The translations under genes and the position numbers were made by a program. A stretch of DNA of 64,000 nt from Kutzneria chonburiensis (lineage in GTDB: Bacteria; Actinomycetota; Actinomycetes; Mycobacteriales; Pseudonocardiaceae). This document shows, piece by piece, positions 3,429 through 19,602 of this stretch. The notes under the pieces were generated by a model. The model ran no database searches, had not been told where the DNA came from, and was given only the letters and a program-made list of their open reading frames with translations. The stretch is taken from positions 2,046,001-2,110,000 of the forward strand of contig NZ_CP097263.1 in assembly GCF_028622115.1 (NCBI RefSeq). The letters run 5' to 3'. Each line of letters starts with the position of its first letter. Within the stretch, counting starts at the first letter, position 1.

Positions 3429-4646
3429 TTGAACGGGCAGCAGGTTCTGATCACCGGACTGGGAGTGGTTGCGCCCACCGGGGTCGGCGCGGACGCGCAC
3501 TGGCAGGCCGTGTTGGCCGGCAAGTCGGGGATCGCGAGGATCACGCGCTTCGATCCGACGGCCTACCCGGTGCGTATCGCCGGTGAGGTCAAGGAGTTCG
3601 ACGCGGCCGAACGGGTGCCGCGCAAGGTGATCCCGGAGACCGACCGGTGGACGCACCTCGCGCTGGTGGCGGCGGACGAGGCCTTGCAGGACGCGGGCGT
3701 CGACCTGTCGGTGATGCCGGAGTTCGACGTCGCGGTGGTGACGTCGAGCTCGTCCGGCGGGACCGACTTCGGCCAACACCAGATGGAGCAGCTCTACCAG
3801 AACGGCCCCAGCTGGGTCGGCGTGTACCAGTCGATCGCCTGGTTCTACGCGGCGACCACCGGTCAGCTGTCCATCCGGCACGGCCTGCGCGGCCCCTGCG
3901 GCGTCCTGTGCGGGGAGCAGGCCGGCGGCCTTGACGCCATCGGCCAGGCCCGCCGGCTGCTGAGCTCGGGCACGCGTCTGGTGGTCAGCGGCGGCACCGA
4001 CGCGTCGCTCTGCCCGTACGGGCTGGTGGCGCAGCTCTCCTCGGGTGAGCTGTCCACAGTGGACGACCCGGCCGGCGCCTACCTGCCGTTCGACGCGGAG
4101 GCCAGCGGCCACGTGCCGGGCGAGGGCGGCGCGATCGTCATCACCGAAACCGCCGACGCGGCAAGGGAACGTGGCCACGAGGCGTATGCGGGAGTCCTGG
4201 GCTACGCGGCGGGCTTCGACCCGCGCCCCGGCTCCGGTCGCCCGCCGGCACTGAAGCGCGTCATCGAACGCGCTCTCCAGGACGCGAACCTGACGCCGGC
4301 GGACGTCGACGTGGTGTTCGCCGACGCCGCCGGCGTGCCGCAGCGAGATTTGGACGAGGCGCAGGCCATCGGCGCGATCTTCGGCCCCCGCGGGGTCGCC
4401 GTCACCGCGCCGAAGACGCTGACCGGCCGCCTGTACGGCGGCGGCGCGGCGCTGGACGTGGCCACCGCGGCGCTGGCCCTGCGGCACGGGGTGATCCCGC
4501 CGACGACGGGCCCGACGCGGCTGGCCCCGGGCATCGAGCTCGATCTGGTCACGGCCCCGCGCGAGCCGGCGCGACTGCGAACGGCCCTGGTGCTGGCCAG
4601 GGGGCATGGCGGGTTCACGGCCGCGCTGCTGCTCGGCCGACAGTGA
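3429..4646 (+). CDS. Type II PKS chain length factor (ketosynthase beta)
   Basis: A thiolase-fold ketosynthase homologue of about 405 residues. At the active-site position it has Gln (GEQAGG, residue ~164) where KS-alpha has Cys, the hallmark of the chain length factor that pairs with KS-alpha to set polyketide length. The chosen start is TTG at 3429 with a GGGAGG site 5 nt upstream; in-frame sequence before it does not look coding. Unlike nearly all relatives, no KS-alpha gene lies upstream. The only KS-alpha in the window is at 18.3-19.6 kb on the other strand. The gene is followed by ACP and aromatase in normal operon order. Confidence 0.93.
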
Positions 4647-4660
4647 AGAGAGGGACGGAC

Positions 4661-4915
4661 ATGAGCACCTTCACCCTGGACGATCTGCGCGACCTGTTGC
4701 GCGGCGGCGCCGAGGAGGGCGCCGTCCTCGACGGCGACATCGCCAACACCCGCTTCGACGAGCTGGGCTACGACTCGCTGGCGGTGCTGGAGATCGCCGG
4801 CGAGATCCAGCGCCGGTTCGGCGTCGTGGTGCCCGACGACGCCGTGTCGGAGATGCCGACCCCGGCCAGGGCGGTCGAGTTCGTCAACTCGCTGTTCGCG
4901 CGGGCGGGGGCGTGA
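4661..4915 (+). CDS. Type II PKS acyl carrier protein
   Basis: 84 residues, the usual length for a discrete aromatic PKS ACP. The phosphopantetheine attachment motif is GYDSL with Ser39. It carries malonyl and growing poly-beta-ketone chains to the KS/CLF dimer. The ATG with an upstream AGAGGGA is preferred over a GTG six codons earlier. It lies 14 nt after the CLF gene and 2 nt before the aromatase gene, so it is part of one core operon. No dedicated phosphopantetheinyl transferase or malonyl transferase is in the window, so these are expected from elsewhere in the genome. Confidence 0.95.
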
Positions 4916-4917
4916 CG

Positions 4918-5379
4918 ATGGCCGGGCACACCGACAACAGCGTGTTCATCGACGCCCCGATGGACCTGGTCTGGGACATGACCAACGACATCGAGTCCTG
5001 GCCGAACCTGTTCAGCGAGTACGCCAAGGCGGAAGTGCTGACGCGGCAGGGCAACACCGTCACCTTCCGGCTGACCATGCACCCCGACGCCGGCGGCACC
5101 TCGTGGAGCTGGGTGTCGGAGCGCACGTCCGATCCGGCGACCAGGACCGTGCGCTCGCACCGGGTGGAGACCGGGAACTTCGAGCACATGAACATCTTCT
5201 GGGAGTACGTCGAGGAGGACGGCGGCGTCCGGATGCGGTGGGTGCAGGACTTCCACATGAAGCCGGCGGCGCCGATCGACGACGCGGCGATGACCGACCG
5301 GCTCAACACCAACACCGGCATCCAGATGGCCCTGATCAAGACCAAGATCGAGGCGGCGGCCGCGAGGTCGCGGGCCTGA
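4918..5379 (+). CDS. Polyketide aromatase/cyclase (SRPBCC, single domain)
   Basis: 153 residues of the START/SRPBCC polyketide cyclase family (TcmN N-domain / WhiE aromatase type). Family signatures include the N-terminal '[26 protein letters not shown]' region and the C-terminal helix '[16 protein letters not shown]'. Single-domain members catalyse first-ring cyclisation (C9-C14 in TcmN-like and pentangular pathways) and aromatisation of unreduced chains. It sits directly behind the ACP. Its stop overlaps the next start by one base (TGATG), so translation is probably coupled. Confidence 0.92.
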
Positions 5380-17497: not shown

Positions 17498-18270
17498 CGG
17501 CCGCCGGCGGTCCGGACGACCTCGCCGGTGACGTTGCCGTTGGCCTCGGAGCCGAGGAAGACGATCAACCGCGCGATGTCCTCCGGATCGCTGAGCCGGC
17601 CGCTCGGCGTGATGGACAGCTCGTGGTCGGCCATGCCCTTGGTGATCGGGCTGGCCGCCATCGCCTCGTAGGCGCTCTCGGTCAGGGTGAGCCCCGGCGC
17701 GACCACGTTGACCAGCACGCCGCTGCCCTCGCCGCCCCACATCGCGCCGCGGGCGAAGCCGTGCATGGCCGCCTTGGACGCGCTGTAGATCTCCGAGCCG
17801 GGCAGTCCGTTGTGCGCGGTGGTGGAGGACAGGATCACGATCCGCCCCCACTTCCGCTCCCGCATGCCCCGCAGCGTCAGCTGGGCGGTGCGGATGGTGC
17901 CGTCGACGTTGGCCCGCAGCCGCGAGCCCCACTCCTCGGCCTCGGTGTTCTCGAACGTGGGCGTGGTCGCCGGGTCCTCCCACGTGAAGTACAAGGCGTT
18001 GGCCACCAACACATCCACGCCGCCCCAGCGGTCGTCGACCGCGTCGACGGCGGCGTCGATCGAGCCCATGTCGCGCAGGTCGTACGGGACGGCGAAGGAC
18101 CGCTCCTCGCCGCCCAGCTGCGCGACCACCTTGGCCGCCTCGTCGGCGGCCGAGTTGTACGTGATGGCGACCTTCGCCCCTTCGGCCCCGAACGCCAGGG
18201 CCACGGCCTTGCCGATGCCCCGGGTCGCCCCGGTGACCAGAACTCTGCGGTCCCGCAAACCAAGATCCAT
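17494..18270 (-). CDS. SDR family oxidoreductase
   Basis: 258 residues: TGATRGIGKA cofactor motif and YSASK catalytic motif. The usual NNAG stretch is replaced by 'VANALYF', which is unusual and resembles some enoyl-reductase-like SDRs. The N-terminus MDLGL...VLVTG resembles the SDRs at 35614 and 5852. It lies 79 nt downstream of KS-alpha with a palindromic site in the gap, so it probably has its own regulated promoter. Confidence 0.85.
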   Translation of the reverse strand: MDLGLRDRRVLVTGATRGIGKAVALAFGAEGAKVAITYNSAADEAAKVVAQLGGEERSFAVPYDLRDMGSIDAAVDAVDDRWGGVDVLVANALYFTWEDPATTPTFENTEAEEWGSRLRANVDGTIRTAQLTLRGMRERKWGRIVILSSTTAHNGLPGSEIYSASKAAMHGFARGAMWGGEGSGVLVNVVAPGLTLTESAYEAMAASPITKGMADHELSITPSGRLSDPEDIARLIVFLGSEANGNVTGEVVRTAGGR

Positions 18271-18316
18271 GTGCCGCGCCCCTCGTCGTAGCCGCGCGGC
18301 CCGACCGGGCCGCTCA

Positions 18317-18342
18317 TAGTAGAAAGTATACTAGTCGACGAG
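18317..18342. promoter_or_regulatory. Putative PadR-type operator upstream of SDR
   Basis: The segment contains AGTATACT (self-complementary) followed by CTAGTCGA. The 13-mer GAAAGTATACTAG (18322-18334) recurs exactly, as its reverse complement, upstream of the PadR gene at 40371-40383. A CTAGTCGA stretch follows both cores. It lies 47-72 nt upstream of the SDR start at 18270. Linking it to the PadR protein of 39733-40323 is an inference from the shared sequence. Confidence 0.6.
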
Positions 18343-18348
18343 CGGGCA

Positions 18349-19602
18349 CTAGCCGCGGCCGAGCACCATGGCGCTCTGGAAGCCACCGAACCCGCTGCCC
18401 ACGCACAGCACCGCGTCCGTCTTGTGCTCACGGGCGGTCAGCGGCACGTAGTCGAGGTCGCACTCGGGGTCACGGGTGCGAAGATTGGCCGTCGGCGGCA
18501 CCACCTGCCGTTGCAGCGCCAGCGCGCACGCCGCCACCTCGATCGACCCGATCGCGCCGAGCGAGTGCCCGACCATCGACTTGATCGAACTGACCGGCAC
18601 CTTGTAAGCGTGGTCGCCCAGCGACCGCTTGAACGCCGCGGTCTCGTGCCGGTCGTTCTGCTTGGTGCCGGAGCCGTGCGCGTTGATGTAGTCCACATCG
18701 GTCGGGTCGAGCCGGGCCCGGTCCAGCGCCACCCGGATCGCCTCGGCCATCTCCCGCCCGTCCGGCTTGAGGCCGGTCATGTGGAAACCGTTGGCCCGGT
18801 TGGCGAAACCGGAGATCTCGGCGTAGATGCGGGCGCCACGCCGCAGCGCCGCCTCCCGTTCCTCCAGCACCAGCACGGCCGAGCCCTCGCCCAGCACGAA
18901 TCCGTGCCGGTCGGCGTCGAACGGCCGGGACGCGGTCGACGGGTCGTCGTTGTCGGCCGAAGTCGCCTTGATCGCGTCGAAACAGGCCGACGTGATGGGG
19001 GACAGCGGGGCGTCCGTCGCGCCCGCGATCACCACGTCGGCACTGCCCTCGGCGATCAGCTGCACGCCGTGCCCGACCGCGTCGAGCCCGGACGTGCAGC
19101 CGGTGGACACCAACGTGACCGGTCCCTCGGCGTCGACCTCCCACGCCACTTCGACGGCGAGCGTGCTCGGCACCATGTAGCCGTACAGGTGCGGCACGCC
19201 GTAGCTGTGGTCGACCAGCCAGCGCTGCCCGGCGTCGGACAGCACGGCGTACTCCTCCTCCAGGCCCATCGTGCAGCCGACCGCGCTGCCGATGCTGACG
19301 CCGATCCGCTCCGGCGACAGGCCGCCGAGCTCGATCCCGCTGTCGGCCAACGCCTCGCGCGTGCAGACGATGGCGAACTGGGCCGCCCGGTCCATCCGCC
19401 GGATCTGCTGCGGGGACAGGCCGGCGGCGGCCGGGTCGAAGTCGCACTCGGCCGCGATCCGCGAGCGGAAACCGGTCGGGTCGAACAGGCTGATCGTCCT
19501 GGTCGCGGTGCGACCGGCGGTCAGCAGGTCCCAGAACGCCTCGCGGCCGATGCCGCCGGGCGCGACCACGCCGATGCCGGTGATGACCGCGCGGCCGGTC
19601 AT
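18349..19602 (-). CDS. Type II PKS ketosynthase alpha
   Basis: 417 residues. The active-site Cys169 lies in [11 protein letters not shown], and catalytic His motifs are NAHGSGT and GHSLGAIG. It is a very typical aromatic KS-alpha ([35 protein letters not shown]). It catalyses decarboxylative Claisen condensations as a heterodimer with the chain length factor. It starts at the ATGA that would overlap the frame-corrected cupin stop. No CLF follows; a SDR does. The only CLF is 14 kb away at 3429-4646 on the opposite strand. Confidence 0.95.

Follow-up and report, generated by a model that had tools for sequence, protein, structure and literature searches.

Ketosynthase and chain length factor genes of a type II polyketide synthase cluster in Kutzneria chonburiensis are separated, an arrangement that recurs in actinomycetes

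A type II polyketide synthase (PKS) cluster of Kutzneria chonburiensis carries the genes for its two ketosynthase subunits, KS-alpha and the chain length factor (CLF, or KS-beta), 13.7 kb apart and on opposite strands. Both genes lie in the stretch of DNA analyzed here, hereafter the window, which comprises 64,000 nucleotides of contig NZ_CP097263.1 (positions 2,046,001 to 2,110,000; assembly GCF_028622115.1). This separation is a real, recurring arrangement and not an error, given that 20 split clusters with different CLFs, including that of the window, were found in three actinomycete families. We consider it likely that KS-alpha and CLF form a cognate obligate heterodimer, the genes of which were separated by rearrangement at the KS-alpha/CLF junction and are expressed apart, while their products still pair. 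The novelty concerns gene organization and not a new enzyme.

The initial annotation had placed KS-alpha and CLF about 14 kb apart on opposite strands, with an active-site Cys in the former, a Gln at the corresponding position of the latter and a short-chain dehydrogenase/reductase (SDR) gene following KS-alpha, all of which was upheld (Table 1); both proteins are full-length. The top PDB match of KS-alpha (417 aa) was ActI KS-alpha (1tqy_A, residues 2-414, E = 3.2e-186), and in the alignment the STGCTSG Cys, the NAHGSGT His and the SSIKS...GHS motifs are retained, so that the Cys-His-Lys-His set is present; we take these motifs to have catalytic roles. Similarly, the top match of the CLF was ActI CLF (1tqy_B, E = 2.8e-132), with the Gln of EQAGG at the position of the KS-alpha Cys. 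Both subunits thus align over nearly their full length with the actinorhodin KS/CLF (1TQY), catalytic residues and CLF Gln being kept. Since both belong to well-defined families, a chance origin of the pair is not in question. With regard to the TTG start and ribosome site attributed to the CLF, a GGGAGGG motif was indeed present immediately 5' of the TTG at 3429, but the frame remains open back to a GTG at 3264, which leaves this start plausible, though unproven. A search with PF00109 across the window retrieved these two ketosynthase-type genes only; hence, no second KS-alpha, which would have spoken against the original proposal, stands beside this CLF. The description of this CLF as the only one holds for the window but not for the genome, a single contig of 10.41 Mb, in which two further KS-alpha/CLF pairs, each adjacent, were located (C1:1810135-1812616 and C1:82880-85358), making three KS-alphas and three CLFs.

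Table 1. Features of the window around the separated KS-alpha and CLF genes
Feature	Position	Strand	Remarks
CLF (KS-beta)	3429..4646	plus	TTG start; first gene of the CLF-ACP-ARO-AnthOx-KR-ABM-ABM block
Acyl carrier protein (ACP)	4661..4915	plus	PF00550
Aromatase/cyclase (ARO), TcmN type	4918..5379	plus	PF03364
Anthrone oxygenase-like (AnthOx)	5379..5831	plus	PF08592
SDR ketoreductase (KR)	5846..6604	plus	
ABM monooxygenase 1	6604..6921	plus	PF03992
ABM monooxygenase 2	6918..7217	plus	PF03992; adjacent to and co-directional with ABM 1
Interval between the halves	7277..17497		MFS exporters, TENA/THI-4, methyltransferases, P450, FAD monooxygenase, NmrA-like
SDR 3' of KS-alpha (SDRb)	17494..18270	minus	begins 78 nt after KS-alpha
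17-base inverted repeat TAGTATACTTTCTACTA	18317..18333	minus	between KS-alpha and SDRb; probable operator
KS-alpha	18349..19602	minus	active-site Cys; last gene of the SDR-TcmI-cupin-KS-alpha block
Cupin cyclase (TcmJ type)	19600..20035	minus	GTG start; based on frame and similarity to relatives
TcmI-type polyketide cyclase	20032..20367	minus	PF04673
SDR upstream of TcmI (SDRc)	20445..21131	minus	same place in many relatives
Glycosyltransferase, AsnB-type amidotransferase, TENA/THI-4, P450, ferredoxin, SchA/CurD	20820..26787	plus	
PadR (minus), MarR (plus), SchA/CurD (minus), SARP/BTAD regulator (minus)	39733..43397		right side of the cluster
Second copy of the inverted repeat	40372..40388	plus	1 mismatch; divergent PadR/MarR promoter region

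The initial annotation had treated the split as a singular oddity, a view that did not survive comparison with other genomes. In all 20 split clusters, KS-alpha sits on the same contig as the CLF, at distances ranging from 2.0 kb (G131; genomes and loci are cited by handle where needed) to 36.5 kb (G162) and in same-strand, convergent and divergent orientations; three close couples are included (G299/G459, G297/G298 and G300/G403). Adjacency was judged by the presence of a KS-alpha within flanks of 1.5 kb around the CLF for the best 30 loci per search, and the resulting fractions are not population frequencies. In the window's own family, 8 of 28 further best CLF loci had no KS-alpha within the flanks, and in all eight it was found elsewhere on the contig. 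Loci without adjacency were also present in the families of Nonomuraea (6 of 30) and Micromonospora (3 of 12), and the 31 loci from Streptomycetaceae all had KS-alpha inside the flanks. A scan of public genomes, with which these family counts overlap, covered the best 80 of 589 CLF loci; 70 were adjacent and 10 were not, the latter from Nonomuraea aurantiaca, N. pusilla, N. wenchangensis, Microtetraspora glauca, Micromonospora veneta, Actinoplanes siamensis, Amycolatopsis rubida, A. circi, Kibdelosporangium persicum and K. banguiense. Three of these are also known by handles (A. rubida is G272, K. persicum G069 and K. banguiense G162). One of the 20 split KS-alphas, that of G503 (G503:C27, near 257758-259010), has a frame break near residues 256-263 and was missed by a strict search.

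A published catalogue of type II PKS clusters discarded KS/CLF pairs separated by over 2 kb, and it names AQ-256 as a CLF for which no KS lies within 2000 bp (PMC10132072). Because 19 of our 20 split clusters exceed 2 kb, with G131 just under this value, such clusters fall outside a catalogue filtered in this way. No report of separated KS-alpha and CLF genes was found in the open-licence PMC literature, subscription papers being mostly outside this scope.

The gene order in unsplit relatives supports the earlier suggestion that the window holds the two halves of one ancestral operon. In G102, G032, the paralog OWN2 of the same genome and Streptomyces NBC_01460, TcmI-cupin-KS-alpha-CLF is followed by (ACP)-ARO-(AnthOx)-KR-ABM1-ABM2, the order in the paralog, at 1.81 Mb of the K. 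chonburiensis genome, being TcmI-cupin-KS-alpha-CLF-ACP-ARO-KR-ABM-ABM. Split clusters carry the two halves of this order separately. In addition, G102 and the window share CurD-TENA2-AsnB-GT-SDRc beside TcmI. TcmI-cupin lies upstream of KS-alpha in all split clusters but one (19 of 20). In that one, A. rubida (G272), an anthrone oxygenase precedes KS-alpha, and the 40 kb of sequence read yielded neither TcmI nor cupin. On the other side, the gene after the CLF is the ACP in 13 of 20 clusters. In five others (G131, G162, N. aurantiaca, N. pusilla and G503), KR-ABM-ABM comes after the CLF; ACP-ARO occupies another place in G131 and G162, and the stretches read from N. aurantiaca, N. pusilla and G503 did not show it. 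In G272, ARO directly follows the CLF and no ACP was found, and in G651 the CLF stands alone while KS-alpha-ACP-ARO-AnthOx-KR-ABM-ABM remains together. At least three routes to separation thus appear to have been taken: a cut at the KS-alpha/CLF junction, removal of the CLF alone, and movement of KS-alpha to another operon (G272).

The initial annotation had stated that KS-alpha and CLF genes of known type II PKS clusters are almost always translationally coupled, and this was only partly confirmed. In unsplit pairs whose CLF is less than 65% identical to that of the window, the median gap was approximately -6 nt, i.e., an overlap (n = 72), whereas in those with at least 65% identity, taken as the window's subfamily, spacing was looser (median approximately +20 nt, n = 81; p = 3.5e-9, with CLF starts set by homology and relatedness ignored). 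It is plausible that tight coupling had been lost before the genes were separated.

Read from KS-alpha, the CLF block of the window comes after the interval, in inverted orientation. The order and orientation now seen would be explained if an ancestral TcmI-cupin-KS-alpha-CLF-ACP-ARO-AnthOx-KR-ABM-ABM operon had undergone one inversion of roughly 15 kb that had the KS-alpha/CLF junction as one of its breakpoints. Judging from strand and spacing, two operons would have resulted, SDR-TcmI-cupin-KS-alpha and CLF-ACP-ARO-AnthOx-KR-ABM-ABM, with SDRc as the probable first gene of the former; strand and distance likewise make separate transcripts for KS-alpha and CLF likely. The two proteins would come together once translated, and the chain that they build would have at least 24 carbons. 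Within this lineage, the separation recurs, probably following a loosening of the tight coupling, and is kept, which suggests that adjacency is favored but not required.

Whether separated partners still belong together was approached through their co-divergence. KS-alpha and CLF distances were strongly correlated among 19 split clusters (r = 0.860; none of 2000 permutations reached as high a value), the corresponding value for 21 adjacent pairs being r = 0.627. As the partners co-diverge, the split KS-alpha and CLF most likely remain a cognate pair.

Several observations weigh against this interpretation of the window. Its own co-divergence profile (r = 0.681) ranked below those of 15 of the 18 other split clusters, and the correlation as a whole may reflect co-inheritance alone. 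Among 91 sequences compared, no relative was found in which the interval genes lie beside an unsplit KS-alpha-CLF; only G162, itself split, shares as many as 6 of them (at least 45% identity). In the six other genomes sampled from the window's genus, 13 of 14 CLF loci were adjacent, so that the split is not common to the sampled congeners; the exception, G002:C2, is of a distant type (39% identical). No SARP-like repeat was shared upstream of the two blocks, and SARP-type heptamer repeats did not exceed shuffled sequences in the regions upstream of these blocks or in nine other promoter regions (11 in total; p approximately 0.19 to 0.97). Finally, the cluster could be decaying, since the cupin and one MFS exporter gene look frame-disrupted.

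How often the genes were separated was addressed with trees built from 80 or 48 of 179 pairs, chosen by identity and by hand. The 179 pairs were left from 195 after removal of identical CLFs, and seven loci duplicating G-handle genomes were dropped; G503, whose KS-alpha was found after the rows had been made, is absent from the trees and from the co-divergence test. A single early split, dating from the common ancestor of most clusters and followed by shuffling and by later re-joining as in L146 (Streptomyces caatingaensis), an unsplit cluster nested among split ones, is possible but rather improbable in our view. It is compatible with the CLF-only tree, which did not reject a single clade of L146 and every split cluster except G651 (p-AU, from the approximately unbiased (AU) test, 0.456), and with quick 80-row trees, in which keeping this set together gave the higher likelihood for either protein (p-AU 0.718 and 0.781). 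The concatenated KS-alpha and CLF tree (48 rows), however, needs 6 state changes, at least 4 of them forced by starred, well-supported branches, and it rejects the one-clade grouping (p-AU 0.0255; 18 split rows and L146, a group named after the trees were seen). Moreover, G651, in which the CLF alone was lost, and G272, with KS-alpha in another operon, look like separate routes. From these trees, we favor with moderate confidence several split or re-join events, with a possible re-joining in S. caatingaensis.

A different concern is that the window's KS-alpha and CLF are no longer partners, either because KS-alpha uses a paralogous CLF or because the cluster is an old mixture of two. The window KS-alpha branches as sister to the clade containing the second pair of its own genome (support 98/95 and 98/92, starred), and the window CLF was not placed there; furthermore, KS/CLF chimeras are functional in rare cases (PMC12664062). 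A CLF held with the own-paralog clade was nevertheless not rejected (p-AU 0.469 for CLF and 0.146 for the concatenated data), so that discordance is not demonstrated, and co-divergence is strong across the split pairs taken together; we regard a lost partnership as very unlikely. Partner swapping had been considered after the first trees, in which KS-alpha grouped with the own-paralog clade but the CLF did not (quick CLF tree); the claim was dropped because later trees and AU tests gave no discordance. Decay of the cluster, which would deprive the arrangement of functional meaning in the window, seems equally hard to credit: it would fit the cupin frame, which departs from that of 11 of 11 relatives, the MFS exporter in two open frames and the broken KS-alpha of G503. 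Against it, the KS-alpha, CLF, ACP, aromatase, KR and ABM genes of the window are all open, KS-alpha and CLF of the other 18 split clusters are full-length (no KS-alpha below 380 aa and no CLF below 370 aa), and a pair of indels in some 10 kb of sequence might also stem from sequencing error. The same two disruptions make assembly errors conceivable, yet no direct point in favor of a misjoin or inversion, which the initial annotation had named as able to overturn its proposal, was found. The window comes from a single contig, the same state occurs in 19 other clusters, and five of these are on contigs of 8.0-12.8 Mb (G162, G230, G459, G403 and G651), several of them of chromosome size; the probability of such an error is therefore close to nil.

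The window's subfamily shows that the adjacency rule fails repeatedly in nature. The split clusters, together with the unsplit paralog in the same genome, constitute natural replicates that allow a direct test of what adjacency offers an obligate heterodimer, candidate benefits being co-translation, dose balance and co-inheritance, and they support placing KS and CLF in separate expression units when pathways are engineered. More speculatively, and in our opinion doubtfully, repeated breaking of linkage might let actinomycetes regulate and exchange the subunits independently and, where a genome has several KS-alphas and CLFs as this one does, recombine them between pathways over time; the window KS-alpha, being closest in the trees to the KS-alpha of the second cluster of its own genome, would be an early case.

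Compared with the actinorhodin CLF, Phe109, Thr112 and Phe116 are replaced by Thr, Gly and Met in the window CLF, at positions that we presume to have a role in chain length. The minimal type II PKS is complete in KS-alpha motifs, CLF Gln and ACP, but lacks the usual adjacency. By its gene content, the cluster is assigned to the pentangular (xanthone-like) type II PKS clusters: it codes for TcmN-, TcmJ (cupin)- and TcmI-type cyclases, an adjacent co-directional ABM pair and a CLF with the KS-beta signature Ile/Ala/Thr at act positions 133/139/140 (alignment to 1tqy_B, with an offset of 8 set by the analysis itself). According to PMC4383371, this set of features, including the typically adjacent ABM pair, characterizes pentangular clusters, and I/V, A and S/T at these positions go with products that have 24 or more carbons. 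The frankiamicin, pradimicin and benastatin clusters are alike in the TcmI/cupin/TcmN cyclases, the ABM pair, the KR and the chain-length signature; in the frankiamicin gene table, however, KS-alpha and KS-beta are consecutive (PMC4383371), in contrast to the window. Xantholipin and lysolipin resemble the window in amidotransferase and halogenase tailoring genes, both reported for lysolipin (PMC9327801). The pair at C1:1810135-1812616 of the same genome (KS-alpha 81-82% and CLF 66% identical) has the same cyclase and KR-ABM order, and, unlike the window, its KS-alpha and CLF are consecutive.

As for regulation, the inverted repeat 3' of KS-alpha and its second copy read TAGTATACTTTC(T/G)ACTA; no third copy was found in the window, and none in 100 shuffles. 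From its positions, the repeat probably serves the PadR or MarR protein of the cluster as an operator, and this regulator would then act just 3' of KS-alpha and probably mark the end of a transcription unit. A sigma-70 scan of bases 1-20000 returned a single site (minus strand, 3212-3185; 11 of 12 matches), which faces the SDR at 2385-3152 and TetR and not the CLF. A palindrome, TATGTCGGGCGGCATA, occurs in the same stretch as this promoter-like site, which is perhaps TetR-controlled. Rfam gave nothing at gathering threshold in the window.

Regarding the remaining genes, the cluster also codes for anthrone oxygenases, FAD monooxygenases, a halogenase-like protein, P450s and methyltransferases, and the interval includes one protein without a Pfam match. 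In polycyclic xanthone clusters of the xantholipin kind, the enzyme forming the xanthone is a XanO4-type FAD monooxygenase. The cupin leaves the reading frame of its relatives after HLSPLA, near the 3' end, and its C-terminus resumes in another frame; this departure is either a sequencing error or a real disruption. As read in relatives, the stop of the cupin frame overlaps the KS-alpha ATG. The second apparent disruption divides one MFS exporter into open frames at 8783-10144 (N half) and 10171-10914 (C half). The true start of the glycosyltransferase is probably near 21258. In the congener G002:C2, a CLF-like and a KS-like gene (126049-132402; 39% and 44% identical) lie about 4 kb apart and belong to a different type II system.

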